64,000 nt of DNA from Tubiluchus corallicola. Lineage: Eukaryota > Priapulida > Priapulimorpha > Priapulimorphida > Tubiluchidae. The stretch spans positions 310,001 through 374,000 of the forward strand of contig JAQGDQ010000208.1 of NCBI GenBank assembly GCA_030141605.1. Direction: 5' to 3'. Positions 2,866-55,422 of this stretch are shown here, piece after piece (the stretch's first letter is position 1; each line of letters opens with the position of its first letter). The notes under the pieces are model-generated. The model did no database searches, was not told the origin of the DNA, and saw only the letters and a program-made list of their open reading frames with translations. Both the position numbers and the translations under genes were made by a program.

Positions 2866-2883
2866 CTACTTCTCGATGATTTA

Positions 2884-6796: not shown

Positions 6797-6897
6797 AAGA
6801 CTAGCATCATGATTGTAATCAGGATTGTTTCGTAAATGATTAATCAACAACTTGTGTTTGTGAATTGATAGACTTTGCCTAGAAGTACAACTTCATA

Positions 6898-12107: not shown

Positions 12108-12258
12108 TCAGTCACTGTCTTTTGGCTCAGGTTTTAGATCGACCATTCGATGCAGCTCTTCTGGAGAGTATCCTAGAAGGCTTTGCAAATCACAGACGAA
12201 CCTGTAGACGTACCGCTTCCCAGCCGTCTTGTGAATGATATTCTTATCATAATAATAT
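12108..12258 (-). CDS. ETS1: ETS1 last coding exon (ETS domain second half, stop)
   Basis: Acceptor TTTTTGTAG, then [20 protein letters not shown], then [16 protein letters not shown] and a short acidic tail ending in TGA (12,108-12,110). It starts by completing the Arg codon of GLR (phase 2). It contains the last part of recognition helix 3 and the final beta strands. The tail holds LKPE, a third SUMO-type motif (K511). Confidence 0.96.
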
Positions 12259-17198: not shown

Positions 17199-17230
<32 letters not shown>

Positions 17231-20200
17231 CAATCTCAAAAAAGTTCATTCTCACCTCTCTGAAGCATTTCCAGATGTTCAAGAAGGATGTCGCCTACAA
17301 ATGGTGGCATGCGACTTAGGAATGCCTCCTTGTGTATGCTACAGAGGATGCTGCCCCGCATGGCAAAAGCGGACGGATTGATGCCCTCCAATGAAAACTC
17401 TCGTATAGCCCATTGTAGCCACTGCTGAACTTGTAATTCGCTCCATTGACGGGGATCTGAAATATAATGTTATTTTAGCAGGGAAGGGAAACAAATAATT
17501 TATTAATAAAATGTTCTATTTAACAACATTAATAATCCAGTAAATAATTACACTAAAGTAGTAATAAATTAGTCAGTCTGAAAAATTTTACTTTTACACT
17601 ATGACTTGACCCGAAGACTTTCTGTGTTCTTGGCAGCAATGCAAACGAATTATTTTATTTGTTCAAATGGACAAGGTGCAGTTTAAAATGCTGAAATTTT
17701 TCATAATGAAATTAGTTTAACTCTCACGCTAAACATTGAAAATCTAATTTTTTAATGCCTTGAAGTACTGAATTTTTTTGTATTTCTATCAACGGGTAAA
17801 CGTATGCCATGAATTCTGATTGTTAGTAGTAAAAAAGTGATGAAACTGTGATTTGCTAAGGATCCCTGCCTCGGTAAAGTCGTCAAAATAAAAAAATAAC
17901 GTAATAACGGGGGGGGGTGTATATTGCACAACTTTCGCCAAATGCACATAATAGTAAGGAGCAGTCATTACTAACTTTGGTTTCTGTTCTGTGTAATACG
18001 AGTACTTGCCAGAACTCGGCATTTAAACAGGACACACATTTAGTATTGTCCTTTTATCAAGCCTGTCATATCTGCGCTTCTGCCCTGAAACAGTTAAGGT
18101 CCGTTCACATTTATCAGACATCAGCAATAATTGAGCCAATATGAGTGAAATTACTTGTATATATTTTCACAAACACGACAGAATGCACGCAAGCTGTTTT
18201 TACCGCTTACTGTCCGCTCGTATACGATTTGTCTGACGAAGACTAATCACCAATGAGCTGCGTAAATGTGAACGAGGGAAAGGAGACCGTTCAAGTTTTT
18301 TTTTATTCGAGACCCTTTCTTAGGCTTCATAAACTAATATATTTCAGTAAGAAGCCGCTAAAGAATGCGTTTCTGCTGAAGCGCAAGCTTATACCCAATT
18401 TTAGTATTGAAGCCTTCTTGGGGTCTCAAAAAGTGTAGTTTCACATAAAATAGCAAATAAATATAAAATGAAAAGATAAAATACAAACAAAAGAGCCCGA
18501 AGTTTGTATTCAATTATTTATTTACGTGCATTTTTAACTTACCATTCACTACAGAAAACCCTTAAAGCAGCAGAAATAAAAAATAAATTTTCATTAACTT
18601 ACGCAGTTACACTTACAGGTTGGAAGCACCTATGTTTTTCACCTCTTAGCAATACATTATCACGTAATTTTAATTTTAGAGCCAAAATGTTTGTTTTATA
18701 ATTTTTGCGCATGTAGATGCATATAAGAGCTAAAAAGCTAAAAGCTAATTTGTATGCGCTACTAATTAACAACAGGAATTAATGTTGCTTAATTACTTTT
18801 GACGTATAAGCCGATTGTCGGTGGCATTTCTAGAAGATTTTGGTTCTTGGACATAATAAGCTTAACTTGAGCAGAATTTAATTAACTCAATATCTCATTT
18901 TTCTATTCGCTAAACAAAGCATTTACAACACGACAAACTTGGGAATTTCACAGCCTTGACATTTCTGTTGGTTTAGAAATTAAAAAAAAAATTATTCCTA
19001 GTTTAAATAAAGCTATAGCAATGAATTAGATATAAGGAACAACATAAAGATTATACAACTATAGGTTACAAACGTGCTTAGCTGGAATTAGAAAAAAATA
19101 TTCTATTACACAAGCATTAAAAGCGAACAAGTTCGAATCTGTCTTTTGTTTTTTTGTGTGCATTTTTACCATTACTAATTGTTTCTCAGGCTATTTACAT
19201 TATTTGGTTTTAATCAGTAACCACGTAAGAGTACCACTATTACTGTAACAATTTAATACTAAAATACCACTGTTTCTGAAACAGTTACTGATCAGACATT
19301 CATTATACTTTTGGAATTCGTGCGTTGGAGCTTTAGTACAATAAGAAAATTTGGAAATTTCTTTTTGCAACTATTATCAATAACATTAGCTGCTAATTTA
19401 ATGAAATAGGTATCAGTGCTATTGCAGTATAGCACAACAAGGTCCTGTAAAACTGTATGATTGCAGGAAAAATCAATACAATTACGTTAACACTTAAAAC
19501 TAACCATTGACCACCAGAATATAAAAATCACATTGCTAAGGATAATTTATACGTTTTTGTATTTATGCTAATCATGCTGCAGGATTAATGGAACAAAAAT
19601 ATTATAATTAACGCTTTTCTGATTTTCCCATAATATCGTCAGACGAGCAAAAATGAAAAGAAACAAAACAACACGATAAAATTTTATAAACGTGACACAT
19701 GGCAGTGCACGTTAACAGAACAAATTCCTGGCTATAAGTTACGATACTAAATGCAATTAAGTTTCACCTTTTGGAATGTTGAGACGATCTCTTTCCTTGT
19801 CAAAACTAGCAAAGCTAGCAGTAAGAGCCTGAGACATCTTCTGATTGGTCCCAGGCGTGAGAGGTGGAACCTGGCTAGGCAGATCTGCAAGAAATAGAGA
19901 CAGTTTAGGACTCGAACTAACAACCGTCTCGACTCTTAAGACAAGTCAACATTCATTATTCAATAATTAAAAGTCTCATAAAAGACCTAAAAATTCTAAA
20001 ATTTTGAGGAAATCTCGTAAAATGTATCCATGGGTTTACAGTTTGCACAAACATCGGGCACACCAAGTTTTCATACTACACTAAAAAGTGATTTCTGAAA
20101 ACTCGCCAAATTCAAATTCAAAAATTCAATTTAAAAAATTATCAAATCTATTTTGTTTTAGAAAAAAAGAAAAACACGTAGCTTAAAGTATGCCAAAGGA

Positions 20201-22961
20201 CCTATACAGCCTTTTTATAGGCCATGAATTATTTAAATTTCCATGTCGTATTGTCAGGCGCAACTTTATTCAATATTACATACAAAACTTTCATAAACTT
20301 GTATTACTAAAAAACAAAACAAAATACATTATTTGCTGAAAAAAATAAGTTAGGTGTACAATACAAAGAGCAATAAGAGCAGCAAAATATATTAATATAT
20401 GCGTATACATACAGCAACATCTTATTTACAACAATGACGGCGAGTGGCGAACATCAGATAAAAAAATTATTTGAGCAACAAAAACTTACTGGATTTTGTA
20501 GTTGCACTGCTGTTATTTGAGTTCTGTACGATGACCATGCTACCCGAGTTTTTATCACTCATTAACAGCACTACTGGACTTATTTGCAGACGTGTATATG
20601 ATTCAAAATTCGTGTCAATAGAGCAGTATAATAACTTTTATTATTTACGTGTTAAATTCAATGTTTATTGCGCACTGCGGCTGAAAATGTGTGTATATTC
20701 ACCAGAAAAGTAATCCAAAATGTCAAAAATAGGTTCATTAATGTATCTAGTAGCTCCAGCAAAAGTTTTTGTTACAAACGTGTCACATGATCACATGCAC
20801 AAGATTGGAATGAGACACACACCAACCTAGAAGTAAGATTGCTCCTGATTCAAAGATTAATTTTCATCAACACTTATTTCGTGACACGTGCTTGAAACTC
20901 GGGGAAGTTTTCCCAATCTTTCGGGAATAACTGTTCTTTGGGAACGTCAATGATACTATAAGATCGTCAGTTTTTCGCTTCGTAAAAGACGCGTTTATAC
21001 AATCCATGGCGGGACGCGTGTATGGCAGGTTATACGCGCGTGTCGAAACATTAACTTGTTTCTCACATCGCACAAGTTTCAATCGAGTTTACAAAATGGG
21101 ATCCCGCATTCAACTTACAATTTTTAAAAATAGGGCTCAATAAAAGTGAAGCACACACACGATTTCAGTCGTCACTAAAACTGTATTTTACTGTTAAATG
21201 AAATTTCCAGAAGTCAGAGCAGTATTAACTACGAGTAAGTTGCTCCATCACAAGAACACAAGTAAAAGAACTGCAGAAATTCGTATTATGTTAATTAATG
21301 TTGCACAAAATTATCCAGCTGCGATGTTAATAGCGTTCATATCATGCGCAACACAAACTACACACATCTCTCTCACACAACCACAAGCTCCTGCGCAAAT
21401 AACTCATGAATATAGATCACACTGATGACAATTTCAGAATCCCCGAATGCGTGCATGGGTGCGTGCTACTCTACACACATTAATTCGTATAGCGGTTCAC
21501 AATTTCACATCCTGTGTACATACATCAGTGGTCAACCAGCATCATATTGTTTCTGTGCATCCAGAGAAGGCTAGCATACGTGCCGATGACTTAAAAAATC
21601 GAGCGTAGTTCCTCTCCCTCACAGATGAGCAACATGGTATGACAATTGTCGCTTATCCATAAGTCCATTATACACATACTGATAGTGTGAAATTTCCTAA
21701 TCTGATTGAAAGGAATGAGTATTGAGATTTAGCAAATATGCGAAAGCCAAAAACCATAGGTAGTTAGAGTTTATCCTAAAATGTTATCTATTCTGTTCTA
21801 GTTTTATAAAAGCAAATAAACTCATATTTTACTTAACGTGTACAATTTTAAATGTTATCTTGCACAGAGAATAGACTTATGCATGCAATTGTTATTAAAT
21901 CTATATCAACGGTTACACTTCAGTTGGCATTTATCAATCAAACGCTTTACATTATATTAGTTGCAATTTTTAGGCTTAAGTGTAATGTATTTTCACTTTT
22001 CAGTAAGAAATTAAACCTACATTTAACTAAAATAATGCAGAAACCGAGCGTGCGCCTTGAAAATTTACAGCAGCGTTCTAAGTTCCATAAAATAATCGAA
22101 CAATTTTTTAACTGCCTAGCAACTACCACTTAAAGTAAAAATTTACATAACCCTTTGATTATCCTACTAGTTTAACCACATATAACAGGCGAAATTACGT
22201 TAAGAAATTATGTCACGTATTACCCCTATTGAATTACCATGCAGATCTTGCATTTTATGTATTAATAATAAACAAAAGAAAGGAATTCAACTTCAGTTGT
22301 AATGAAACAAAATACAGGTTTAACCTTAATTTATTTATTAGTTTTATTTTTCACAATTCTACTACAGGAACCCAGATAAGCACAGCCAAAAGAAGCTGAC
22401 AAAACTAATTAGTCAAAAACGTTTGGGAAAAGTCGGCGGAATCGATGCGTTTGTAAACTTTGCAAAATAAGTTTATACAAAATTATCAGATTTTAAGTGA
22501 TATTAGGAAACTGGTATCACATGCATGGGAGGATTAACAAAGGCAGAGAGAAATTAAGCATAGTTCCTGTGCGCAATTATTGGAAAAAACAGCGCAGAAC
22601 TGCACTAATATATTAAAACCTCATCAACCGCCGTTGTAATAATAATATGGAGCTACTGAAATGAGAAGTATGATTAGAAATAGTTTGTACTGATGGCTGC
22701 TAATTTAGTAATTCAATAGGAAATAATGTAACATATAATATAATAATATAACAACCTTATTTATATTACGTGCAGTACGTTTTCATTGAGCAAACAAAAA
22801 CGACATCAGCATATTGCTTAACGATTACAATAATTAAAATTTATAGACATGCACGAGCAATAAATGAAGGCCGCAGTATTATTAGATGTTGAAGCAGTTT
22901 TGAAGGCGAAAGGTTCCTGGTTCAAATCCAGGCTCTGTCCCAACGTTTTCACCTTTAACAC

Positions 22962-23014
<53 letters not shown>

Positions 23015-26000: not shown

Positions 26001-29000
26001 ACCCATCTAAAGCGTTGTACTTATATAAGAAAAGCCATAATATTAGTTAATCAGAGCACGATTTGCATGCGTTAAAATTAAGATATGAATTGATTTTTAA
26101 GTGCGTACAATAAACACGAGAAAAATAAGATTTAATGAATAAAAAGTTAAGCCTACTTTTAAACTGACAACGAACTGACAGAAAAATAAACCATTAATAA
26201 AATAATAATAACGGGCATATATGTTATATAAAGAATATGGATGAAAGGCTTGTGGACAGTTTATCAAAATGTCATAGATGAAGAAAATTGTACCAGTGAA
26301 AATACTGTAGACCGGAAACATTGCTGTACCGGAATTGTGTTTATACCTGGCTAATATGAAACAAATATCAACACAATTGCAAAAGGAAACAGGCATTTTT
26401 CATCACTTCTATGCATGAGTGTGTATCAAATAAAAGCAAGCGACACACTGATGTATATAAAATAAAATCCACAAAATACGAGCGGAAGTACAGCAGTACT
26501 GTACAGGAAATGCAGAAGAGGAAAAGATTACAACACTTACTTATGAAAGCGGGTTGGCTCATGAAATCACACCCAAGTCTGTATCCATACGAGCGCGCAC
26601 TGCACAGTGTTTCTTCTTGAATTGCCACCATGATAATCAGAAGCAACTGAGATCATACCTGCGTCTTATTCAATATGCTTGCTTCTGACACCTGTTCTAG
26701 GGACGGGGGTGTTTTACTCATCGCTCGGGTTCAATTAATTTGAGAAAGCTAGCCTGCGCTTTTTCTCTCTTGTCATGTGATCAAATCCCATTGTTTGTTG
26801 GATAGCTGGGAAAAGATTAGCGTGGGACAGTGTGCTACAGCTAGCTGAAGTCCCCTCAACATTCCCACACAGAACCACAGCTATAACAGGTGCATCTTAT
26901 TGTTTGGTTATAATGGGCCCAGGTTATAATCAATGCCCACGGCAAAACAACACGGACTGTTATGAATCCCGTTACTGCATTAACCTATGCGCCAATCAGC
27001 GCTCGAGGAGCGCGTCCCGTCATCCAATAAACGGGACACTAACAAAATGCAAGTAATTGTAACAATATTGGAGCATCTTATTGTTATGCTGGGGACGCTT
27101 GTCATTACCATAGGAGCGGATTTATCAGAGAGTCCAGGCAGTTCATGGGAAAGTAAAAAGCACGCCGATTTAGGGCGTCTAACGGTGATTATTTGCAGAA
27201 TATTGTAACTGTCCAAAGCCAGTTAATAACGGCATAAATCTAAATGCAGCTACAGCTTTGGAATGATTAAAATATTATTAAACTTAAGGCAACAAGAATA
27301 AAATTAATGACAAGAATGCAGAAGAGGGCGCTTTTATTGTTCACCATGGTACGAATGGTATGATTTTATTCATAAAATTTATTTATACGCAAGTAACTTA
27401 GATATAGTACACTTATTGGACATATTTTCGTATGGATTTAATAAACAATAATATAATCACGCGGTATACAGTTTTTTGATGCGATAGGAGATATATATAC
27501 CGTGAGAAAGTGCTTTGCGAATGAATGAAAATATAATGAACTGGGTACTGCTAAGCTTGAAGTAATTAAATTGAAGGCCCACGTTGTGAGACCCTTCATA
27601 AAACACACAAGACTGAAATGAATGAATTAATACAATAATGAATTAATGATTAAATGAAATATTCTAATCGCAAGATACCACTATTTATTTTCTAAATAAA
27701 TTTCTGATTTAAACTGAAATTGTATAGAACGTAAAAATATATTTAGATCAAATTTAAATTAAAAATAGTTTTACTGTTTCTCTGTTTTATCCAGTAAATA
27801 AAGTTCAAGAAATTAATTTGTAAGGTCCACTGCAGGACAAAAATGCCCCTATAGAGAAATTTACTGTAATAAGGTGTGTCTACTATTCTTCATCTTAAGA
27901 TAGTGTATATATGTCGTTTACATTTTCAACTTGTAAAATGTCACTGCAAGTAGTTCCCAGGTGCTCGCACATTAGCATACACTAATAAAAATTAAACAGT
28001 AATCATCTAATAAATACTTGACCACTCAACTATGCTACAATCACCATTTCTGAAAATTGCCAATTTTCAGTGACTTCATGTTTGAAAAGGAAGAGGACGA
28101 TTTGTTTAAATGTGCGCGAATAAAATCGCTAATCAATCAATATAAAATCAGAATAAACTTCTATTGTTCCCTGGCTATTATACAATATTATCTAACAGCA
28201 CTTTTACAGCCTGGTCGTGAGTTAATTCCCTGGCTTGAAACTTTCTCACACTCGGTTATAGCGTCACTATTGCTACTGGGTAGATAGCTACCCTATTTGC
28301 GCTGATAACGGTATAATGATGAGGCGGAGAGACAACCCCTTGTTTCCGGCCCCGAGGACTTGATCATTAAAACGACACTGAAAACAGGCTGTCGATAAAG
28401 TTTCGACTGACTTTAGCTCTTATAAAAGCGCTAGACTCAGCATCACGTTTGGCTCAGCATTACTCTCTGACTCTTTGTGTACTGCATGGTTCAGATTCAT
28501 AATTATAACTTACTTACAGGGGTTTATATATTCAAAATTATAATATAACTAGTCACACTAAATTAAGCAGAGTAAGTTAAAAACAGATACATAAGATGGA
28601 GATGTACGCGACATTTTTAATAAAAAATAAGTTACTACAATGCCAAAAATCGAATTTACATCTGAAAATTATTTGCACATGCACAATAAAAATTCTTTGT
28701 ACATTTTTGCTTATGCAGTACATGAAGGCATTAACTTTGCAGACACTTTTCTTTATTTATAGGCCAAATGCAAATAAATTTCCAAAAAACAACAACAACG
28801 ACAACAAAAACAAAAACTGCAATTGCAAACGTATTTCTATGAATAATAAAATAAAACGTTAAATTTTTTAAAATACGTCAAGAAGGAACAAAGTGTTGAA
28901 AGCCTTTTAGTGTGCTAACGCAATTATGCGGCGATATTAGCAATATGTTAATTAATGATATCTTTAATTTACTATATTTAATATTGCTGCTATTCTTTCC

Positions 29001-30008
29001 AAAGATTACTTCTGATAAATTTACTCTACATTTTATACTTCCTACAAATGCAACATAGTAAGTGGCTCATTGTTTAATCTCATATAAGTTAACCCACCAC
29101 AAAAATTCAAATTATGAAAAAAAACCACCACTTCCATCTTCCATAAACTGTGATTTTTCTATATTCACCATTACAAAGAAACTTTTTTTGTGTTTCTTAT
29201 TTTAGTGACTCTATATGTTTTATAATGTTTTTGTGTCATGTTTTCTGAAGGCTAAAAATAATTTTGTTAACCAGCATAACAATTGAAACTGTTCAGAACA
29301 CTAGAAGGCAGTTAGTAATTTTTTATCTTCGTAAAATAATAACCGAAAAGTACTGCAGATGTAATTTAGCTATGAACTAATGTTTTCACTGAAGTATATG
29401 CATGCAGGTAATTTAACTGGAATATTTACGCTGGGCTACACGAGACGCTATTTGGACAAACTAACAACTGTAATTATGTAACCACTTCACTACCATTAAA
29501 ATTAAAAACAGCTCGCATCGATTGCACGCACCGTGCTTAGCAATTTCAGCGTTTTATTCGAAAGCTTGTTTTTCCCATTTTCATATCAAACTTATAAAAA
29601 TATAAAAATCAAATAAAGAAACAAAACGTGACACAAAAGGATAACTGCAAAATGTTATTGTGCAAATATGATACGGAATTATTGAAGTCATCTTTACGTA
29701 ATACAATAATGTCGGCGGAGTGTTGTTTTTTATTATACATTGGTTATATTGTAAATAAACAGCAATAAGACTGGGCCACGGCCGAAAAAACTGTTCTTTT
29801 CACCTGAAAGACCGCCATAACAAATCAAATAAACTTTTTAGGATCCCTGTAGCAGTTATTTGCACACTGCACAACGGTAGCAGTAGATAATTATTTCCTT
29901 CAGATTAAAATATAATCTATAGGCTGTACATATATACACACACGCACGCACACACATATATGCACATACATATATACATACATGCACTATATATATATAC
30001 ATATATGG

Positions 30009-30071
<63 letters not shown>

Positions 30072-42000: not shown

Positions 42001-45000
42001 TTAAATGCCGTATACAAATAGCTGCATTGTGTTAAAATAGTTTTGAAGTGATGTCACATCATACAGACACCCCATGGGCAGTTGGGCACACGGCTTAAAT
42101 CTCTCAGAAGACAGCAAAATCGAGGAATCTTCCCTTAATGAAAAGAACAGCACGCGTCGGGCGGCAGACTTGGAGATAAAACGATTAGTAAAAAGTTGCC
42201 AGCCGTGACATTGGGATTACCTGGCACATGTTAATGACAGGTATGCGTTAAACCCTGAAAAGAATCATTGTTAAATATAGCATTATTGGCGCAGGTGTGC
42301 TGATTTGGTGATTAAGAAAAAACTGTCATATTAGCGCATCACTGATTATCAGTGTAAGAAATTTCCAGATTCTTAAGCCTGCCTCTTTAAACTTCAGCTG
42401 GACCATATGGAGCTGTCAAATCATTCTACTAGAAGCTGATATATTATTAGAAATAAGTTTAAATGCAGCTGAGTAAAAATGTACTTGTGTTTCAAACCAA
42501 AGAACAGAAACAGTCATGCTGTTAATGCAATTTTTATTCTAGTACAGGATGTTAAAAATATAAAGCGGATTAAAAATATAATGACATGCTTAAAACATAC
42601 TGATCAAAGCACAAAGTAATGATGTTGAATGCTAAGATGTAGATGTATTAAAATAACGTCGTTCTACACATGCCAGCATAAGTCTCACCACACATACTGG
42701 ACTTTGTGTGGTAAGCAAAATTCATTTGTTAGTGCAATGTCTCTTTTGCGTCACCCTGTATAACAGCTACCCAAATATGAATAATTATATTATAGGCGGG
42801 CTATGTGGTTCTGACCGGGATAATTATACGATAAGACTTGACAAAACGTAGTCACCAAATTTGTCCATTCAAAAAGGACTTAATTACCAAATATTATATT
42901 AATTTAAAACTTACAGCAATATATTCTACAAAAGTAGTTACACAAGCCTTATACATCAATAAATTTAAAAATAATCAACAGAAGAAAGAAGACAAATATA
43001 CGCAGATTTCTAACCAAAACTGAAGCGGGAAATATGATTGCACTTACCAAGAACAAAACCCTCACACTGTTGCAAAGGTACAAACTTCTTTTCGTGTTTC
43101 ACTTCAACTGCTGGTTTCTCAAAATGTTCTGTCAGCACGGCTTCAATGGTAAGATGTTCAGACTCATCACCGAGGATAGTGTCCTCCAAGACGGAAGCAA
43201 GAGTAAGATCGTGTGAAAGCAACATCATTACAGTTCAAAAGTCAAGCAGAGGAGGGAATCGAAAAGAGCAGTCAGCAGAAGTGCAGCTAGATGAAATTCA
43301 GCACTCACCTACAATCTTTCCCTCCAGTATTTCAACCCAAGACACTTGCGGAAGATGGGGATCCAGTAAGGGCGTATCAGAACTTGGTGACGGGTTGAGG
43401 TCATCTGGGCTGCTCGTTTCGCATGCTAACTCCACGCACAACATACGTGAATCAGAGACAAAAGAATTGCAAACAGTAGCGTGTGGAGACTGATGGTGGT
43501 GGTATGCAACTCTCTACTGATAAAAGCAGACTTGAGAACTACCAATGGCAGCCAAAACAGATTCTATTTGTTGAATGTCTCGCACGAGAAGCACGCATAT
43601 AATATACATATGATGTCATGTGAAAATACAATCATGAATACAATTACTTGGGAGCAAGAACGCGACTTTTATTTATGCATTAGATGAGCAATAAACTTAT
43701 CAACAACCAATCGGGTTACGCCGTTCTCAAGACATGCGCCACCTTATATAAATTGCACAACAGTCACAAGCGAGCTAAATTCAAGGCAAGTACCTCTGTC
43801 TCAACCAATCAGAGCAAAACAGGGATGGATCTTATCCCGGTTAGATTCTTTATAAGGATAATTCCAGGAGTTCAAGCACCTGTTAACTCCAAGAATTTTC
43901 ATACGACACGAGTCAAACATTTAGATCACATTACACCCACGTGCTGCTTGAAAGGCCCAGCCTAATTTCCGGCAAAACGTGCGCAGTGTGATTAGGGTCA
44001 TCGCATTAGGGCCAAATTTCCAATAATTTGGCCACAATTTCCAGGTGAAAAAACATTATTTTAGAAAAATATACTAAAATACGAATGATTCTTTAAGTAC
44101 AACAACAGACCAACAACAAATTACTCATTCTTCCTAGTCTATAGGCCAGCAAGAACCGATACAGATGGTAAGAAGTTCTGTCGAACAGAAAGTAAGAAAT
44201 AGTTTGCTCTCCAGTGCCCAGACAGTGACGGTCTGCATTCCTCCGTGTCTGCAACTGATGTCCTATCATAAGGAAGGACAATGTGATTAGACGCTGGTCA
44301 CTTGACAACCAATGACTGACTGTGGGGTTCATGCAGCAAAACTTGAACAACGTTGATCCAACAAGTTTTCAGTGTGCTTTCTGGTCTCTATCGGTTATTA
44401 TGGTAGAAGAAACTGAGAAATACATAAAGTATACGCAAAAAATAGAAATACTTTCGAATTATTACGTTATTTTATGTAGAATAACGAATATTTTACAGTA
44501 AAAGTCGTTCCCACACACAAATGATACGTTACAGCACAACACTACTTAAAGTTAACATAATTTCAAAAAAAGGGTAAGCAATTTAAAAATTACTTAGCGA
44601 TGCTTAATGCACGGTAATATCTCAACTTCGTCATTTTCTATCCGCTGTCATTCACGAACATCAAGTGTTATAAATGAAATGACTGAATAAGTTCAAAGTC
44701 TTAAGTTCTTCCCAAGGATATCCTACTACGATGGTATCCTTTTCCTTTCGGACAAGCTGAAACCTATGCATCGTCATGCTTACTACACATACAAAATACT
44801 AAAATGTACCAAATTTTACAAGCACTGTTGTCAGAAAGTACTAACTCTGTAAAATGTTACCATTAAAAATGCACATGATTTTTCCATGCAAGTGATGAAA
44901 AATATTCAATAAGCCCAGATTCATGGGCTTTCTATTCAAATAAACTAAAGTACTTATAGTAACTTTCCAAGTAATAAGTAAAGCTATAGGTCAACGCGAG

Positions 45001-48000: not shown

Positions 48001-51000
48001 TTGCAGGGTAAATTGTTACAGTACAAGGTTAACCTGTTTATAGGTATAGTGTGAGAACAGTAGTTGTTTGGGAGGACCTGCCAAGTTGTTCCAACTAAGC
48101 TCCTGAGCTCTGTTAATGAAGTATAATTTCAAATTCTCAAAACATAACTATGGATTAAGTTTATTAAACAGTCGTTGTGTTTGTGATGGGATTGCATTTT
48201 GTGTGACAGATACATGCACTCGCAGCTGCATGCTTGTGTTAGTGGACAGTAGTCAGTGGCTGAACAAATACAGCTGAATTACTTCCACACAATTTCACGA
48301 AATCACTGTACAACTTCGTCATATTTATAAAGACATGTGCCAAAAAAGCAGTGCACAACAAAAGAACTATCTCCACGAAACGGGATGATTGTTAGAATCG
48401 GGTAGAACATAGCCCTGCCGCGGTGAACACAATGTCGTGTCTGTTTCACCCGCAGACCTTGCGACACGTGCTTTGAGGGTACATAGTCGTTACAGAGTGG
48501 ACTCAAGCTTAACTAAACTCGATTCAAAACCAACAATACCAAACCGGCGTGCAACAAGCCGAAAAATAGAAGCGAAGCTCAGTTTAAGCCGCTTGCCATC
48601 TTTGTAGCACGTGTTGGCGATGGGCTTTTTTGCTACTAGGTATTATTTTGTTTAAGGTTAAGCGCCACTTATTCCTTATTAGTACACATCTCGACCGACC
48701 GCCACAAAGCGAGGCAAATCAATGCCACGATGCGATCTTTGTATTTAACAGAAATTTGCAAATCGGTGCCAGATATCACAACAGCCAAGCTGACGTCGCA
48801 ATACAATGAAAATATTGTAGTCTCTGTCGTAGTTTGGACGCAGCAATCCCTGACAGGGTAATTACCCCATAACGACTGAGACACGCACCATCAATGCGCA
48901 TCTTCGCAAATAGATACTTTAACAAAAAACGGGCAATTTTCCGAATTTCATAACAATGTATTTAAGCACTTGGGACAACAGGTGGGGCATGGTGGCAGAC
49001 GCGCGGTCTTAAAACCCGGTTTCAATCTCGTCATCATCAAAAAGTGGATCAAAAAACGAATAATCAGGTATTTCGAGCCTTATCGATTGTTACAGTAAAC
49101 GGAGCACCCCTGCAGAGTCTCACGGACCGATAGTCATTGCTAAAATATGCGCAAATAACAATAATATACTACTGCAGAAACAGTAACGTATAAATTATCT
49201 GTATGTGTATGCGCACCTGTGCTGGTAATTATGTATATTGTCATTCCGTTGATTTTGCATGGCTAAAAATAACTGACGTAAGGACACGTAATTTACAAAG
49301 CAAAAATAATCAAACACTTATTCGATGTAGTGCTGGCATGCAACACTGAATGGCGTGGCTCACATAATGTATATCGTTGGGACCAGAGTTTAGCTGGTTG
49401 CTGGGTCTTCAAAGAGGTAAAATGATGAGTACAAATTGCTGATGAAACAAATGAAACAGCTTGGAATCTCGGTTATCCACCCATTTGCTGGCTAATTATT
49501 GGCACTGCTAATTTCGGTCGCTATGCGTACGCTGTCATCACTCACATTTCATCAAAATTAATTAGTAATTGGTTTAGCATTAATCTGTTAAGACCATAAA
49601 AAGCCGGAGCGTTTATAACGGTTAAGATATTTTGCTGGTATCTAAAATGGCCTTCAAATCCAGGCAATTCTGGACTTATTCAGGCAAATCTTGTCACTAT
49701 TTTCATTCTGTTTACTTTCGTCTGAATCTAAATAATAAGGGATTTTTTCTTTCGCTTGGTGCACTAATTGATAATCTTGAATCTAAACACAAAATTATGT
49801 CGGCTACACACTTATGACTATTCTGTACTTCATGACATTTTACATACTTTTTATAGTGCTTAAATTGCATGGCCACCCAACTTCTTTAAGCTATGGTGTA
49901 TATATAAGTATATCCCTCTGGCTCTTGCACACTTTATTACTGCTTTATGTTGCAAATAGTGGTCCAACCACTTTTTCTTGATTTATTATGACAACAGACA
50001 AATTAGTGATTATTCGGCTTGCTTATAATATGCAAATTATCTTTATCCCCAAAGACGGTGTGGACTCTAAAACACTTACGCTGCTTACGCTAACCTCCAA
50101 TAAAACACTTACAAGAAAGCAAGCATTCAAGAAATGCGACCAATGCCTTAGAAGTAGAAGGATAAAAACAAACCGAACTTTTTATTAGGCTTAATGTACA
50201 GGTTTTATAGCCTATTGATTGCACTACAATGAATTTTAGTACAGTGAAATTAGCTGACAGAAAAAAACGAAAGGTAGATGGAACACCCGATATCTGTCTA
50301 GTCTTAAAAATCAGGAAGTTCCAACAATCAGAAAGAGAAAAAATAAGGAGCTATGTAGTCAGATTAGCCTAACGTCTTTAAGAGAAAGGACAGTTTATTT
50401 GCTGCAAAGCACAAATTAAGGAGGAAAAAACAATATACTTCTACACCCAAGTACTATGCGGCGTTAGTAACACGAACTTGATGTGCTGTTTTTCCTCTGG
50501 TTACAGAACGCAAGCAAAATAAAGTTTGCGGTCACTCTGCGCCAAGTAAAAACTGTCTGTCCCTGCCTAGGCGGAAAATCAATGTGTATTCGAACTACCG
50601 TCATTTAGTTTGGACAGAACGCCGACAACGCGATGACTGTGAGAAAGAACATTAGGGAAAGCCCCACTTAACAAATATACCACGAGAGTCTGACAAGAAA
50701 AAAAAATAGTCCATGTGGCTGCTTGAACGTTAGATGGTTAGTGGCTAGGTGTACCTAGACGTTACGGATTAATAATATCGTAATTCTAAATTGACAAACG
50801 TTTACACTTTAAGAACAAATGGCGTAGAAACTAAAATCCATCTTTACGTAATGATTTGTATACTCATGAAAGCAAGCTCATGTACATTGTATCTGCACAC
50901 TAACCTATCTGATCTTCTGGTATTTCTGATCTTTCTAGACCGCTGAAAAATATATGTAAACACACACAGACCTGAAAGGCCCACGGGGACAGCTAATGAT

Positions 51001-54000
51001 TATTTCTATAGCTAGATTGATAGCTAAAACATGAAATTAAAGAGCTACCACACGTGGATGGGCTTCTAAATACAGAAAACACTGTGGTTATGAACCGCAG
51101 TAGACAGCATGGCTTCCAGATGAGCAACCAAACGTTGTAAGGCTTCAACGAGCCAAGCGGTACCTCCCCCACAAACATCAACAACCCATCCAGGCCCAGC
51201 AGTGAAGCTTGGGTAGCACGTGTGTTAGAAACGCTACCATATGTTTAGCGTGCAAGCAATGGGATTTGAATTTATGGATGAAAACATACTTATTTATGTC
51301 TTCTGAGCGATGGTATAATTGCTTATCAGCCAACGCTAGCCGGGTGCATGCATTTTTAAATGTGACCATGCTGACCATATGTTAAACATTAATGGTTTTA
51401 AACGCGGGGGAATAATGATAAGAGATTTATTTTTGTTGCTCTGGCCCGTGGCAAGATGATTGCTTATCGTGGAGCATATCTAGTCAACACCTGCAAGAAT
51501 TCTGCACTCAGAATACAAACACACGTGCATGAAAACGAGGGGGGTCAGAAGAGCAGTGTTTTAAAGGTAAAACAAAAAACCAACGCTGTGGACAACTGTG
51601 CAATTTGAAAGCTTCGCAGAATGATTCACACTAAGATTTAGTAAAAATGATTTTTCATTCAGTGTATGTAGCAGCAAAAATAGGCTTAACACTATAACGA
51701 GGTTAGAAACTTTATACCACAGACCTCCAAATCCACACTAATTACTGATTATTCATTATACTAGCTCACTGAATCTATGATAACAATCTATGTATGAAAG
51801 AGTTGAGCATGGTGTAAACCTGGTGCATGTAGCAAGGGTGCGCCCGCAGCGCAAAAGTGACCAAAATAATAGTTGCTTACAAATTGTATTGTTCTATGCT
51901 ATTGTTTTATTTAAATGTAGTCTTTTACAGCCAAAGACTTACTGTTTTTCAGTGGAAAGCTAGTGCAAAAAACAGACTTAATAAATAAATTTGTTATCAA
52001 ATTAGTTCTACTGACAGCAGTTTAGTATGATTCCCGAATACTCTTGTGCTTGAGTATCCAAAACTATATGAGTTAAGAATTTTAAATTGAACGGAAGCTA
52101 TTAATACAGTTAAAACTCTGCTTCCACATTTCCAGGGCTGTATGTCATGCATGGTACTATTAGTAATCAATCAGAGAAGGAGAACCATCGTCGACACCAT
52201 TCCCACGCAAGTTTGACGTTCCGCGCTTTCATTTGTGAAGAACAGGCATGTTTTTGCTGAGCAAGGATTCTATTTTCGCTGCCTCCTTTACCTTGGTCTC
52301 AGACATGTTCGTGCGGACAGATTCAGAGCAATTTAGAAGCCTGAGACATCTACAAACCTCGCTAAATATTGGTGTTAGGAAGCCGAAGATTAGGGGTGAT
52401 GAAAAAAGTAGCGTTGAATTGAAGAAAGCACGCACGAGTGATTTCAGGGTCGCCAAAATCTAAATTCAAAGTTCGCAATGCTTACACTTTGCAAAATTTT
52501 TGTAGCGTAGCTCTCATCACAGAAAACGGCGAAATTTTTTCATGTAGTAACAATTTACAACTACATTATTGTCCGTCCCAACTATATGATGCATATGATT
52601 TAAGTATCACCACTGCTACTACCAATACCACTACCAATGCGAATACCAGCATCAGTACCAATTACCAGATTGAACTATGACATCAGGTGAAGATAAATTA
52701 GACATCAAAGAGTCAGGTCTAAGAGGATAAATGCTTAGTTTTACAAATAGCCTTCCATATGTACATATTCCTGTTACTTATCTTCTATTCACTTTAAAGT
52801 CTAAAACGTAAATGCTACGACAGCTACAAAGACAGACTCGAAAAATATGCTTTCTTGAGTTTATAAATAAAGAATAAAATTGTTTATTCCACTCGGGTGT
52901 TACTTACTAAACTCGGTATCAAGAACCAGAAGGTCCTCAAAAGTGTGTGATACTACAAGTGGTATCAGGTGGTAAGATGTTAAATCGTTATAACAGTACT
53001 TCCTTAATGGAAGTCGCTTTTACCTGAAGCTACAAAAACGACCAAGCACTGCCACGAACGTAATAAATTGTTCCATAAAGCCTTTCCTTAACATGATATT
53101 ATTTGACGTAATTTGATAAAAAAAGAGACGATGAAAGGAGCATTTCATTCATGTCAAGTGAATTATAGTCATGTCGTGGGCCAAATCTACAATTGTTCAG
53201 ACACGAGCGGAATACAAATTTAAACATGGGAATAATTTAATCAAAAAATGCCCTTCAGCCTAGGTGTGTAAGCCTTAGGTAAACTGGCCATAACTGTCAG
53301 AGTCGTGGAGAAACGGGCAACACGCTGAAACAACTTCGCTTTCTTCTCCCGCAGTCATGTGAAAATTCTTAACAATCTGGAGCGTCTTAACAACAATAAC
53401 TGCAGGCGTTGAAGGGGGACGAGCCTGGCGTGGGAATAGCAACTGACCACTGATATCAATTTGTCAACATGCTATCAATTTCATATTAGTGACGTCGTAA
53501 TAATTCCTAAGCTTTTTGACTGATCACCCCAACACCTGAAAATCAGGTGCGAGACGTCCCAAAGTCGTCTCTACCTTAAGAAAATTGCCTCTTCTTCCGA
53601 TGCCTCGAGTATAGTTTCATTCATGAATACATGGCGCCCCCGATGCCACAGCGTGGAGCCTTCTCGAATTCATGAATGGAAAGGTTGAAATGCTTAACAG
53701 CCCACTTTGCGATGCATACAGTACAGCAGGGTGAGCAAGAACTCACACCGTAAAGGCTTAACTACTCACTGTAGAAACAAACTGCGCTGAGATAATTATG
53801 CACTGATGCTATTACGTTCGCGAAAGCATGCGATAATGAGACACATACTTAAATTTAATAACTACAGCCTGTTAGCGGCATAGCGGCAGTGCCTGAGCTT
53901 ACAAAGCCGTTATGGCAATGAAAACGATTTCACTGGTTGACCCAAAACTTATGATTTAATCTCGCTTCCATGGTTTTTGTAACTTTCGCAGGATGATATG

Positions 54001-55422
54001 AATTTCGCGTTTTGATATGAATCAAAAGGACGACAAAAACTATCCAAGACGCACCACGCAAAATAACAATTTATTACCCGTCCATTCCACTATATAGCTT
54101 CAGTGCATTCAAATAGCTTTACCATTTCTTCTTGGTCACTGTACAGAACCACAAGGTGATAAGATCAGATAATAAAAGAAGCCAAGTAAAACTTAAAAGC
54201 TGTACTTACCATTTATGTCGGTGAGATCGCCGATAGATGGCACTTTTTGTATGGTCACATGAGGATTTGGCACACATTGTTCTCCTTCGCCCATTGGCTC
54301 AGGCTTAATACGCAGAGGCTTTGGTATGACCATAGAGTGCGGTCGCATAGGTTCTTTAAAAACCGGAGATGTCTGTGCTTCCGTCTAAAAAACCACAAAT
54401 CGTACGTTAACACTACATTATATAAATTTCGCATAATCCGCAGCTTAATTTATGCACGTATTGATTTAAAGAAAAATATCTACGGCAGCTATTATAGATT
54501 TTTATTATATTTATAGATATTATGTTTATGATTTTTAACCAAATAATTTTTGTATTTAAAAGTAACACAAACAGTGATTCGTAAAACAATCGTCAGTTTC
54601 AAGAAAAGAAATGAAAACAACCAAAGAAATATCTTATATTAGGAGAGTTACCAATTTATATTTGGGCCGTCATTCTGTTAAAACATATAAGACTTGTTTC
54701 TCAACTATAAACACCAACAATAATTTAAGTTCTCAAATTTGTAGTCTTTATGCAGCTCTTGCTTTTCATTTGTGCCAAAATATCAAATCTGATTGCTCTC
54801 GTAGAGTACGCAACTACACATCCGAATACTAAACAACGTGACGACTATGTATACATGTTAGTGATTTTTTTTCTACTGTAATAAACCGAACAGTGCTGTT
54901 TTCTTAAGAGCTCAGAAACTGGTCTGTTTGCTGGGAGATAAACTTCGACCAAAACGTAAAAAGCCGCCTGAATTACGGTAATTGACGAAAGTAAATAAAA
55001 TAGAGAAAAACAGCATGCACTCTGCCGAACAAACCAAAAATTCAGAATCAGAAGTGATCCGACCCGATAAAAGCAGTCAGATGTACGGATAAATTAAAAT
55101 AAGTCAATGAGAAAAACAATTTTCAGTACACAAATTTATAAATAAATAAAAACTTATTTTTTGTTAACTTACTATGTTAACATACGTTAACTCGCTTTTA
55201 ACTTGCAAAATAATGAGTTACTACACACAGCCAAAAGTTGAAAAGTTTAAAACTCTTGTGACTTGAAGAAGTCAGTGGCATTACACTAACAGCACGCAGC
55301 ACGATGAATAAGTCATTAAAGTGCAATACAGAATTATACAATAACAAAGTACGCTTTTTCTCAGAAATCTAAAATCGTCGTTATTCACTTAATACCTTTA
55401 TTATCCCATCTTCTAGCGTCAT
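12108..55422 (-). CDS. ETS1: ETS1/ETS2/Pointed-class transcription factor, 9 coding exons, 518 aa
   Basis: Spliced from 55,396-55,422; 54,210-54,384; 19,768-19,884; 17,256-17,456; 15,751-15,969; 14,505-14,744; 13,796-14,032; 12,738-12,927; 12,108-12,258 (total 1557 bases, one frame). ETS1-class factors are nuclear, bind GGAA/T sites and respond to ERK signalling (family knowledge). Seen here: a SUMO-type IIKTE motif split over the first two exons; PPLTPGT with T77-P78, matching the ERK site of ETS1; MSQAL...F...K.RLNIPKDPRQW leading into a PNT domain (about 83-172); a Pro/Gln/His/Tyr-rich middle (175-400); [23 protein letters not shown], the inhibitory-module and ETS junction typical of ETS1/2; an ETS domain (about 408-491) with W-x-G-D-G-W, ARRWG and [15 protein letters not shown]; then [17 protein letters not shown]. 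The ETS domain lies at the C-terminus, as in ETS1/2, not ERG/FLI. Human ETS1 has 441 and ETS2 469 residues. Confidence 0.95.
12259..12737 (-). other. ETS1 intron within the ETS domain (between last two exons)
   Basis: A 479-base AT-rich intron with GTAAGT donor and TTTTTGTAG acceptor. Nothing else seen. Confidence 0.85.
12738..12927 (-). CDS. ETS1: ETS1 exon encoding the ETS domain first half
   Basis: Encodes [16 protein letters not shown] through NYEKLSRGL. It enters in phase 1 and leaves in phase 2 (AG before GTAAGT). The conserved tryptophans and the DNA-contacting [10 protein letters not shown] helix are intact. A substitution gives RRWGIRKNK where vertebrates have RRWGKRKNK, losing one basic residue in the loop before helix 3. 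Confidence 0.97.
12928..13795 (-). other. ETS1 intron before the ETS domain, holding a MITE-like element
   Basis: 868 bases, half of it the TIR element at 13,042-13,483. The remainder is AT-rich without features. Confidence 0.85.
13042..13483. mobile_element. MITE-like element, about 29-bp TIRs, TA flanks
   Basis: 13,042-13,070 and 13,455-13,483 are perfect inverted copies (outer part TACCGTATTTTCCCGTGTAT). If the outer TA is the target duplication, the element is about 438 bp starting CCGTATTTTCCC. A further copy of the inner TIR with one mismatch (CCCATGTATAAGAGACCC, 13,404-13,421) makes a roughly 50-bp direct repeat with the left end and folds back on the right TIR. No transposase frame inside, so non-autonomous. 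The TA duplication hints at a Tc1/mariner-like source, but I cannot assign the family. Confidence 0.85.
13796..14032 (-). CDS. ETS1: ETS1 exon, linker and inhibitory region ahead of the ETS domain
   Basis: 237 bases, phase 1 at both ends. Encodes [11 protein letters not shown], a Pro/Gly-rich linker, PLRDMLNNN, then [14 protein letters not shown], matching the PVIPAAALAGYTGSGPIQ junction of vertebrate ETS1, where the autoinhibitory helices lie. Donor CCG before GTGAGT, acceptor GGTATTTCAG. Confidence 0.95.
14033..14504 (-). other. ETS1 intron
   Basis: 472 bases, AT-rich, no further features seen. Confidence 0.85.
14505..14744 (-). CDS. ETS1: ETS1 exon, Tyr/Pro/His-rich middle region
   Basis: 240 bases, phase 1 at both ends. 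Encodes [20 protein letters not shown], similar to the SYQTLHPISSEELLSL segment of vertebrate ETS1, then a low-complexity stretch with [17 protein letters not shown] and [12 protein letters not shown]. Likely part of the transactivation region (inference). Donor GGTG before GTAAGA. Confidence 0.93.
14745..15750 (-). other. ETS1 intron with one consensus ETS site
   Basis: 1,006 bases, AT-rich. CCCGGAAGTA at 14,773-14,782, about 30 bases upstream of the exon at 14,744, matches the high-affinity ETS core CCGGAAGT. Nothing else seen. Confidence 0.8.
15751..15969 (-). CDS. ETS1: ETS1 exon after the PNT domain (Gln/Pro/His-rich)
   Basis: 219 bases, phase 1 at both ends. Encodes [19 protein letters not shown], then [19 protein letters not shown] and a His/Pro-rich end. 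Acidic/aromatic clusters such as EFNEFF look like activation-domain sequence (inference). Acceptor CTTTTTTGCAG, donor GAAA before GTAAGT. Confidence 0.93.
16869..16912. repeat. 22-bp tandem duplication
   Basis: CTTCCTGTCAGGTTAGGTGA occurs at 16,869 and again at 16,891 with CC between. Confidence 0.9.
17194..17231. repeat. (TA)n microsatellite near the PNT exon donor
   Basis: Mostly alternating TA, ending about 25 bases into the intron after the PNT exon. Confidence 0.9.
17256..17456 (-). CDS. ETS1: ETS1 exon encoding the core of the PNT/SAM domain
   Basis: 201 bases, phase 1 at both ends. Encodes [20 protein letters not shown], then [30 protein letters not shown] and [16 protein letters not shown]. 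This is a five-helix Pointed domain, with the W-x-x-x-x-V-x-x-W-L and FVGDIL-x-EHLE signatures shared with ETS1, ETS2 and Pointed, where it docks ERK (family knowledge). LSRMPPF replaces the vertebrate LELAPDF. Confidence 0.97.
17457..19767 (-). other. ETS1 intron, 2.3 kb, with a short TIR element
   Basis: AT-rich. The only structure I can support is the TIR-bounded segment at 18,102-18,274. A poly-G run lies near 17,909-17,917. Confidence 0.7.
18102..18274. mobile_element. Possible short MITE (TIR core CGTTCACATTTA)
   Basis: CGTTCACATTTA at 18,102-18,113 and its exact inverse TAAATGTGAACG at 18,263-18,274 bound 173 bp. TCAGAC (left) and GTCTGA (right) add loose inner symmetry. No coding capacity. 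Target-site duplication not evident. Confidence 0.45.
19768..19884 (-). CDS. ETS1: ETS1 shared exon with the TP phospho-motif and start of PNT
   Basis: 117 bases, phase 1 at both ends. Encodes [20 protein letters not shown], then [18 protein letters not shown]. Vertebrate ETS1 has PLLTPSSKEMMSQALKATF here; T77-P78 corresponds to its ERK-phosphorylated Thr38. Acceptor TATTTCTTGCAG. All candidate N-terminal exons join this exon. Confidence 0.96.
20490..20562 (-). CDS. ETS1: Candidate alternative first coding exon A of ETS1 (24 codons)
   Basis: Reads [20 protein letters not shown] then TTKS and ends with CCA before GTAAGT, leaving one base (phase 1), which fits the exon at 19,884 across a 605-base intron. 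A second ATG (20,536-20,538) has A at -3 and G at +4, a strong start context. The donor has A rather than G at its last exon base. The peptide is Ser/Asn/Thr-rich and resembles no family. It is supported by position, phase and the promoter-like patch upstream only. Confidence 0.4.
20900..21060 (-). promoter_or_regulatory. Candidate proximal promoter of ETS1 (CpG-rich, TATA-like)
   Basis: CpG-dense for this genome (GCGCGTGTCG, GACGCG, GGCGGGACGCG). On the - strand it contains TGTATAAACG around 20,990-21,000, TTGACGTTCC (CRE-like half site) and AGATTGGG (inverted CCAAT) at about 20,915. It sits about 400 bases ahead of candidate exon A. Confidence 0.35.
22880..23014 (+). mobile_element. SINE fragment with tRNA-like T-arm and (TAA)n tail
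   Basis: CCTGGTTCAAATCCAGG (22,916-22,932) forms a perfect 5-bp stem with a 7-base loop and contains the pol III B-box GGTTCAAATCC. About 30 bases later a TAA repeat starts and runs to 23,014. This is the head-to-tail layout of tRNA-derived SINEs. The A-box side is not recognisable, so the head is degraded or truncated. Confidence 0.65.
26541..26631 (-). CDS. ETS1: Candidate alternative first coding exon B of ETS1 (30 codons)
   Basis: ATG at 26,629-26,631 with A at -3 and G at +4. Reads [20 protein letters not shown], then [10 protein letters not shown], and ends ATAA before GTAAGTG, a strong donor in phase 1 that fits the exon at 19,884. Splicing would create an Asn codon at the junction. 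CCAAT motifs and a CpG patch lie about 360 bases upstream at 26,990-27,035. No homologue is recognised. The overlapping + strand frame is a shadow. Confidence 0.45.
26990..27035 (-). promoter_or_regulatory. Candidate internal ETS1 promoter with CCAAT boxes and hairpins
   Basis: Contains CCAATCAG and CCAATAA (read as ATTGG on the - strand), a hairpin GCGCTC-GAG-GAGCGC (26,999-27,013), and GTCCCGT ... ACGGGAC with a 7-bp stem just after. CCAATCAG is the NF-Y consensus and is repeated at the 43.8-kb patch. The element lies upstream of candidate exon B. Confidence 0.35.
29897..30120. repeat. 224-bp palindrome enclosing CA/TG and TA microsatellites
   Basis: The outer arms are near-perfect inverse copies: AATATAATCTATAGGCTG (left) and CAGCCTATAGATTATATT (right), extended outward by CCTTCAG / CTGAAGG. 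Inside, the left side is CA- and CGCA-rich (ACACACACGCACGCACACAC) and the right side is the complementary TG tract with TGCGTGCGTGCG. The middle is TA-rich. A long cruciform or hairpin is possible. Confidence 0.9.
36610..36770. promoter_or_regulatory. CpG-rich patch inside the ETS1 intron
   Basis: Unusually GC- and CpG-rich (GCACGAGG, GCGCCAG, ACGCCAG, TCGCACGTACG) within strongly AT-rich intron. The - strand holds GGAGGAAGTTCGG, an ETS-type core. No splice donor in a useful phase was found next to it, so it is either an enhancer, another promoter, or the remains of an unrelated insertion. Confidence 0.3.
43048..43228 (-). CDS. ETS1: Candidate alternative first coding exon C of ETS1 (60 codons)
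   Basis: From tandem ATGs (43,226-43,228 and the next codon) it reads [20 protein letters not shown], then [20 protein letters not shown] and [20 protein letters not shown], ending CTTG before GTAAGTG in phase 1. A TGA lies just upstream in frame, so it is either a first exon or one whose acceptor is the pyrimidine-rich CTTGCTTCCGTCTTGGAG. That acceptor would start in phase 0 and could not accept exon D. The acidic, helical composition is compatible with an activation segment (inference). Confidence 0.5.
43309..43444 (-). CDS. ETS1: Candidate alternative first coding exon D of ETS1 (45 codons)
   Basis: ATG at 43,442-43,444. Reads [20 protein letters not shown], then [20 protein letters not shown] and EGKIV, ending GTAG before GTGAGT, an excellent donor in phase 1. 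Joined to the shared exon it gives [16 protein letters not shown]. Rich in SP/TP sites. It lies only 80 bases upstream of exon C, yet the two cannot be joined in frame by any acceptor I can find, so they look like mutually exclusive starts. A TATA-like box lies about 300 bases upstream. Confidence 0.5.
43740..43812 (-). promoter_or_regulatory. Candidate internal ETS1 promoter (TATA + CCAAT)
   Basis: On the - strand: CTGATTGGTT (inverted CCAAT, about 43,803-43,812), then about 55 bases later AATTTATATAAGG (43,743-43,753), a good TATA match, followed by CpG-containing sequence. Spacing and order fit an RNA polymerase II promoter firing towards exons D and C, with a start expected near 43,715. 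Confidence 0.45.
45033..45167 (+). repeat. Dispersed repeat, copy 1
   Basis: Shares GTCTAGTCTTAAAAATCAG, AATCAGAAAGAGAAAAAAT, AAGAGAAAGGAC and CTGCAAAGCACAAAT with 50,281-50,420, in the same order and orientation. No coding or terminal repeat structure seen. Confidence 0.85.
47681..47868. repeat. 94-bp tandem duplication
   Basis: Two adjacent units (47,681-47,774 and 47,775-47,868) differ at only a few positions. Shared blocks include GGCATATCCACGCAAACGAA and CTCCTTCCTACCTCTACCTG. Because 94 is not a multiple of three, the open frame running through it shifts between units, which argues that the frame is not a protein. Confidence 0.9.
50281..50420 (+). repeat. Dispersed repeat, copy 2
   Basis: See 45,033-45,167. 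This copy has small indels, for example GGA inserted after AAAAATCA and several missing bases near GAAAGGAC. Confidence 0.85.
54210..54384 (-). CDS. ETS1: ETS1 second coding exon of the canonical N-terminus
   Basis: Acceptor TTTGTGGTTTTTTAG, then [20 protein letters not shown], then [14 protein letters not shown] and [11 protein letters not shown], donor ATG before GTAAGTAC in phase 1, matching the shared exon at 19,884. It enters in phase 0. RIKPEP (K36) is a second SUMO-type motif. Internal methionines could serve as starts if the exon at 55,396 is not used, but their contexts are weak. Confidence 0.85.
54385..55395 (-). other. First coding intron of ETS1, 1,011 bases
   Basis: GTATTA donor (slightly weak) at 55,395 and a strong TTTTTTAG acceptor. 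AT-rich; the + strand frames at 54,247-54,516 and 54,611-54,832 are not recognisable. Confidence 0.65.
55396..55422 (-). CDS. ETS1: ETS1 first coding exon (MTLEDGIIK)
   Basis: ATG at 55,420-55,422 with A at -3, nine codons, then AAAG before GTATTA in phase 0. Joined to the next exon it gives [13 protein letters not shown]. Vertebrate ETS1 begins MKAAVDLKPTLTIIKTE, so IIKTE is recovered exactly across the splice. The frame is open further upstream to an acceptor-like CCTCAG ending at 55,453, reading IKHVKPVTKT before the methionine, so an additional upstream exon is possible. Confidence 0.7.

Follow-up and report, generated by a model that had tools for sequence, protein, structure and literature searches.

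An ETS1 gene of Tubiluchus corallicola with at least two predicted N-termini ahead of a single ERK-site exon

The chicken p54 and p68 forms of ETS1 differ at the N-terminus, the interchangeable part lying just ahead of the ERK site. Both forms are named for chicken ETS1 in PMC10992995. The human p54 form is described as beginning with a first exon termed exon A, followed by exons III-IX, and sumoylation at K15 and K227 reportedly holds human ETS-1 back (both statements from PMC6071050). In Drosophila, according to PMC7728396, the difference between the PntP2 and PntP3 products is confined to the part ahead of the MAPK site and the SAM domain, the N-terminal parts measuring 141 and 59 aa, respectively. 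The same source assigns them start sites of their own as well as differing activity and expression. A literature search covering titles and the beginnings of abstracts returned no paper on Ets1 N-termini outside flies and vertebrates; absence of such work is not claimed.

The locus considered here lies in a stretch of 64,000 nucleotides (C1428:310001-374000, referred to below as the window), and genome searches covered the whole assembly of 343.5 Mb in 2344 contigs. By its PNT and ETS domains, the gene on the minus strand is of the ETS1 type and reads as an ordinary animal ETS1. Eight coding exons in the window (54,384 to 12,106, minus strand) and one exon beyond it, A0, join into a frame of 537 aa without a stop. 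In the joined protein, Pfam detects PF02198 (SAM_PNT) with E 2e-25 and PF00178 (ETS) with E 2.4e-35. A PDB sequence search aligns C-ets-1 3wts_C with residues 384-533 (E 3e-76). Among the best 60 of 111 PDB matches, the top 18 are ETS1 or ETS2, and the ETS domain is nearest to C-ets-1/2. Set beside the ETS1 entries of the PDB (3wts, 1md0 and others), the ETS domain and its flanks appear as an ordinary relative with no notable difference. ETS1 2jv3_A aligns with the shared and PNT exons (E 3.1e-36); the alignment begins at the VP.LTP motif and places VPPLTP over VPLLTP. The ERK-site motif (PLTP) is located N-terminal to the PNT domain on an exon of its own, the position that characterizes class I ETS1/2.

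This exon, called shared below (19,768-19,884, minus strand, 38 codons), contains the VPPLTP motif and is in phase 1 at both ends. When used as a query against the whole assembly, it gave one match, itself. It is followed on the same strand by the PNT (SAM_PNT) exon at 17,256-17,456, by three linker exons at 15,751-15,969, 14,505-14,744 and 13,796-14,032, by the ETS domain exon at 12,738-12,927 (phase 1 in, phase 2 out), which carries the matches to PF00178 and C-ets-1 3wts_C, and by the last coding exon at 12,106-12,258, which holds the end of the ETS domain and the stop codon and whose ends are taken from the joined frame. The shared, PNT and three linker exons (13,796-19,884, minus strand) are symmetric with phase 1 at both ends, so that skipping any of them, including the PNT exon, leaves the frame unshifted. 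A search of the window against Rfam gave 0 matches, and a viral_contigs search with the common 450 aa of the ETS1 protein gave no match. The assembly has 118 homeodomain matches; 12 of them were inspected, and some of these read as Hox2-, Hox3-, Hox4- and Hox5-like, as expected of a bilaterian animal. A COX1 search of the assembly gave 0 matches.

The surroundings of the gene contain several other features. Pieces of a reverse-transcriptase-like frame are present at 2,675-5,205 on the plus strand, where SPGPDEIP and FADDTNLF can be read by eye, and another frame of this type was seen elsewhere in the assembly; such pieces are probably non-LTR retroelements. Two long plus-strand open frames at 6,883-7,878 and 9,122-9,781 include membrane-like stretches and probably represent exons of a second gene in convergent orientation to ETS1. 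Upstream of ETS1, at about 2,490-2,810 of the 8.5 kb past the window, there is an open plus-strand frame of 102 codons (KFAAQHERGPGEQLSQ...) with an exon-like stretch inside it at extended coordinates 66,626-66,754 (plus strand). It is possibly another gene or element. In the assembly at large, some ETS-domain exons fall into sets of identical score, one set spread over three contigs and another over two; a kinase match likewise recurs with one and the same score on six contigs. These identical matches may be unmerged haplotypes or recent duplicates in the assembly.

The sequence-only reading of this DNA had taken the exon ending at 54,210 as the canonical first exon, which was not borne out. 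This exon, exon A (54,210-54,384, minus strand; 58 codons, phase 0 in and phase 1 out), comes second among the coding exons of the main isoform. It is flanked by an acceptor of its own, TTGTGGTTTTTTAG, and by the donor GTAAGTAC; its phase-0 frame is open back exactly to the TAG of the acceptor and fits an upstream start exon with a phase-0 end. A first-exon role was rejected on account of the acceptor and the upstream exon, and exon A is very probably not a first exon. The ATG at 54,348 chosen previously could be usable from an internal promoter.

The putative start exon A0 is located at C1428:379813-379896 (69,813-69,896 in extended window numbering, minus strand), about 15 kb upstream of exon A and 5.8 kb past the window edge on the same contig, of which the next 8.5 kb were scanned. 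It comprises 28 codons, MELEFYGDLESTDFYLEQTSPMSAMHIK, with the peptide MELEFYGDLES...MHIK. It is preceded by the acceptor tatccttag, its start context is GAGAAATGG, and it ends with a phase-0 GTAAGT donor. This is the phase needed by the acceptor at 54,384, and A0 therefore fits exon A. The acceptor-to-donor scan took in every open stretch 60-400 nt long, which made 15 for the minus and 10 for the plus strand. Only two of the known internal ETS1 exons passed its filter (14,032-13,796 and, in extended form, 15,969-15,751); the exon at 13,796-14,032 was second in the scan (18.6), narrowly exceeded by its own extension to a further donor (18.7). Outside the known exons, A0 was the best minus-strand stretch with 3.8 bits, the next one having 0.1. 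One stretch of the plus-strand control reached 3.9, about equal to A0, so that the scan score alone is unconvincing and it is the start context, phase and position that convince.

A0 is thus likely to be the start exon of the main N-terminus, which would probably comprise 86 residues from two exons (A0 and A). One would then have to look for the start of ETS1 about 15 kb further upstream than the exon previously taken as first. The join of A0 to A writes IKTE, a psi-K-x-E motif, and IKPE comes next. Both might correspond to the sumoylation motifs of human ETS-1. Compared by eye, the vertebrate N-terminal peptides and those predicted here presumably share only the psi-K-x-E motif.

Besides exon A, four ATG-open exons on the same strand had been proposed to meet the shared exon at one common phase-1 splice junction. 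These are candidate B (43,309-43,444; 45 aa, donor TAG/GTGAGT), candidate C (43,048-43,228; 60 aa, phase-1 end at TTG/GTAAGT), candidate D (26,541-26,631; 30 aa) and candidate E (20,490-20,562; 24 aa), all on the minus strand. The coordinates, strand, donors and phase 1 of all five exon ends proved right, and the shared exon does take a phase-1 upstream exon. The junction codon is GAT (Asp) for the ends at 54,210, 43,309 and 43,048 and AAT (Asn) for those at 26,541 and 20,490. What did not hold is the single junction as a specific constraint. Six successive ETS1 acceptors, from the shared exon through the ETS exon, are in phase 1, so a phase-1 first exon would be in frame with any of them and not with one junction only.

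The phase pattern was also examined by counting. With strict donors (GT[AG]AGT), the intron upstream of the shared exon has 20 minus-strand donors; these give four ATG-open frames of at least 24 aa, all of them in phase 1. Four such frames are reached in 11 of 400 local dinucleotide shuffles (mean 1.07). The three frames of at least 30 aa are reached in 21 of 400 shuffles and the two of at least 45 aa in 11 of 400. In other sequence of the assembly, 28 of 501 donor-phases are ATG-open, including 14 of 167 in phase 1, this background set having taken in the plus strand of the window as well as a number of coding flanks. The resulting expectation for 20 donors is 1.1 to 1.7, and the Poisson chance of at least four is about 0.03 to 0.09. 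Three of the eight ETS1 donors are not GT[AG]AGT; two of these fit GT[AG]AG and one fits neither. With such relaxed donors (GT[AG]AG, 19,890-72,400, frames of at least 25 aa), phases 0, 1 and 2 have 3, 8 and 3 frames on the minus strand and 4, 9 and 3 on the plus strand. The phase-1 excess is alike on the plus strand and hence not special to the sense strand. The six phase-1 acceptors together with the similar antisense excess led us to reject the phase match as strong evidence, and the pattern is a weak hint at best. The longest two frames, both at 43 kb, account for most of what stands out.

Coding character was assessed with codon log-odds, for which kinase and ETS exons of this genome served as training material. 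The training set comprised 19 pieces (3862 codons) for the intronic-frame test and 38 pieces (5640 codons) for the shuffle and z tests; each piece of the latter was the longest run without a stop, whichever of three frames it lay in, so that some few pieces may be out of frame. In the intronic-frame test, each exon is compared with length-matched open frames from introns (up to 3000), and the fraction scoring as high is taken. This fraction was 0.002 for exon A, 0.000 (to three places) for C, 0.012 for B, 0.055 for A0, 0.112 for D and 0.258 for E. The shuffle test employs 1000 stop-free dinucleotide shuffles of each exon itself; as many as 529 scored as high as D and 545 as high as E, compared with 58 for B, 64 for A0 and 0 for both A and C. 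In the z test, 30 ATG-open frames of at least 25 aa on both strands were ranked, E being below the length cut. C had the best z (4.52), followed by its shorter form (4.35), by exon A (3.05 for the 46 codons from the ATG) and by a pair of overlapping frames on the plus strand, antisense to C (2.78 and 2.33). A0, whose own coding signal is modest (1.65), and B (1.43) were among other frames at 1.0-1.7, and D had -0.2.

These tests have limits of their own. The training set is small, and the score separates the two strands poorly: some reverse frame outscores the sense frame in eight of the ten exons of the shuffle test, the exceptions being B and C. Real exons are missed by the shuffle test, as 95 of 1000 shuffles score as high as the shared exon and 0.231 of 966 shuffles as high as the ETS row. 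Owing to these low scores, D and E are to be considered unsupported and not disproved. In the intronic-frame and shuffle tests, the ETS rows begin about 19 codons inside the intron and the PNT rows overrun by about 1 and 4 codons. The x15719 row of the intronic-frame test includes about 12 intron codons before the exon and 5 after it, and the x13755 row of the shuffle test holds about 29 intron codons, so that all these rows are rough yardsticks only. The last-exon row of the intronic-frame test, read in a wrong frame containing stops, was left out.

The signal of candidate C comes mostly from amino-acid composition, its synonymous part alone being at 0.155 of the null. The peptide is acidic (12 D/E, 4 K/R) and contains one psi-K-x-E motif, VKHE, which type of motif is absent from B, D and E. 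It might serve as an acidic activation segment. Pfam, searched up to E 1, gave no match for the B or C N-termini. The possibility of C being an internal exon that begins at or before its ATG was rejected: an in-frame stop is located two codons upstream with no AG between, as seen by eye. Judged by sequence and composition, A0+A and C, both with phase-1 ends upstream of the shared exon, represent at least two N-terminal sets. The joined ETS1 frame is open, the splice sites and phases fit, and the composition is coding-like.

We consider it reasonably probable that at least two alternative N-termini splice onto one ERK-site/PNT exon, A0+A coming from upstream and C from inside the intron. The main transcript would begin upstream of the window with A0 (28 codons) and continue through the exon ending at 54,210 (58 codons) to the shared exon. 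A second transcript would begin at around 43.2-43.8 kb, within the intron of 34 kb, and use C (60 codons); B could arise from the use of another donor within the leader of C, and the candidates at 26.5 kb and 20.5 kb would be chance open frames. The DNA-binding, PNT and ERK-phosphorylated parts would remain constant, and promoter choice would exchange the stretch immediately preceding the ERK site (86 vs 60 residues). We infer transcription from 43 kb, all of the splicing and the effect on activity. The swap would be expected to alter the site of ETS1 expression and the strength of activation, as with fly PntP2 and PntP3, leaving ERK control and DNA binding unchanged.

A rather doubtful extension of this scheme holds that there are three N-termini, A0+A, B and C, where B and C result from alternative donors (43,309 or 43,048) in one first exon under the control of a TATA-like element. 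Use of the distal donor would turn the B frame into an upstream open frame dampening C. Read on past the skipped donor, this frame is 48 aa long and its stop ends at 43,298, 69 nt before the ATG of C, which agrees with such a role, as do the strong donor of B and its GAT junction codon. Few intronic open frames score as high as B (0.012), which in the shuffle test also exceeds each of the five other frames of its stretch; the z of 1.43 for B, however, is within the noise of the control frames, 58 of 1000 shuffles match it, and its ATG context is poor (GATTCACGTATGTTG). The TATA-like TATATAAGG (43,742-43,750, minus strand) is suitably placed, about 300 bp upstream of the B ATG and about 520 bp upstream of the C ATG, with CCAAT/ATTGG motifs nearby, but such sites are not rare in the region: TATAWAAG has five sites on the minus strand in 19,885-72,500, TATATAAGG among them. 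It could at a stretch be the promoter of B/C. The CpG o/e ratio did not single out a promoter at B/C, and no local repeats of 20 or more bases were found in the B/C, D and E stretches. B may be an alternative start exon, an upstream open frame in the C leader, or leader sequence and nothing more. That the 43 kb patch is a single first exon with two donors, the proximal one leading to B and the distal one to C with B as its upstream open frame, is in itself unlikely. If true, the choice of donor would determine which ETS1 activator is made and how much of it, alongside a distant main promoter.

It is quite unlikely that A0+A is the single N-terminus and the C frame a chance or fossil one in a GC-richer patch. 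The GC content of B and C (0.50 and 0.43) does exceed the 2 kb averages of the window (0.31-0.40), and the patch also has a stop-free plus-strand frame of 151 codons (43,038-43,493) antisense to B and C. This antisense frame has a coding score of -19.7 vs +13.4 for C, on which ground it was rejected as a real gene, and shuffles that keep the composition never reach C (0 of 1000). The full set of the sequence-only reading, in which the four extra exons and the canonical one are all used to give five or more N-termini, is highly improbable: all four GTAAGT/GTGAGT donors are in phase 1 and four frames of at least 24 aa appear in only 11 of 400 shuffles, but D and E score like their own shuffles, relaxed donors give a similar phase-1 enrichment antisense, and the match is unspecific given six successive downstream acceptors in phase 1.

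D is probably a chance open frame, and E probably is as well. D was also considered as a repeat and rejected, no second copy of the surrounding 901 bases being found in the genome by a search that skips very common words. The earlier reading had itself allowed that some of the four extra exons may be chance; D and E show no coding signal. Up to five interchangeable N-termini are not supported in view of the shuffle results for D and E, nor is a set larger than in the known examples, which would depend on these two together with B. The idea of an ETS1 with multiple N-termini is supported for the main one (A0+A) and for C and finds no support in D and E. On the best reading, two and possibly three N-termini would meet the ERK-site/PNT exon.

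If C is used, an animal beyond flies and vertebrates swaps the segment ahead of the ETS1 ERK site by promoter choice. This would point to an ancient origin of the arrangement, or to repeated origins, in a gene reading out Ras/ERK signalling, and it would provide a precise exon to look for in relatives.

Two parallels had been drawn previously, of which c-ets-1 p54/p68 is apt and Drosophila P1/P2 is not the nearest one, since PntP2 vs PntP3 is closer, as far as the available text of PMC7728396 goes. Judged by that text, Drosophila pointed resembles the present gene, as predicted here, in having two N-termini ahead of a common PLTP/SAM and ETS part and in the great length of the locus (about 55 kb in Drosophila). 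The shorter N-termini are also of similar size, 59 aa in PntP3 and 60 aa in C, the two being likened by layout and length alone. Separate start sites are described for PntP2 and PntP3 and are predicted here. The c-ets-1 p54/p68 pair likewise has interchangeable N-termini ahead of the ERK site, and the shared exon of the present gene aligns to ETS1. Unlike in vertebrate c-ets-1, the main N-terminus here would be coded by two exons. The best reading of A0+A (86 aa) and C (60 aa) meeting at the ERK-site exon would therefore be an arrangement of the PntP2/PntP3 and p54/p68 kind and not an enlarged set.
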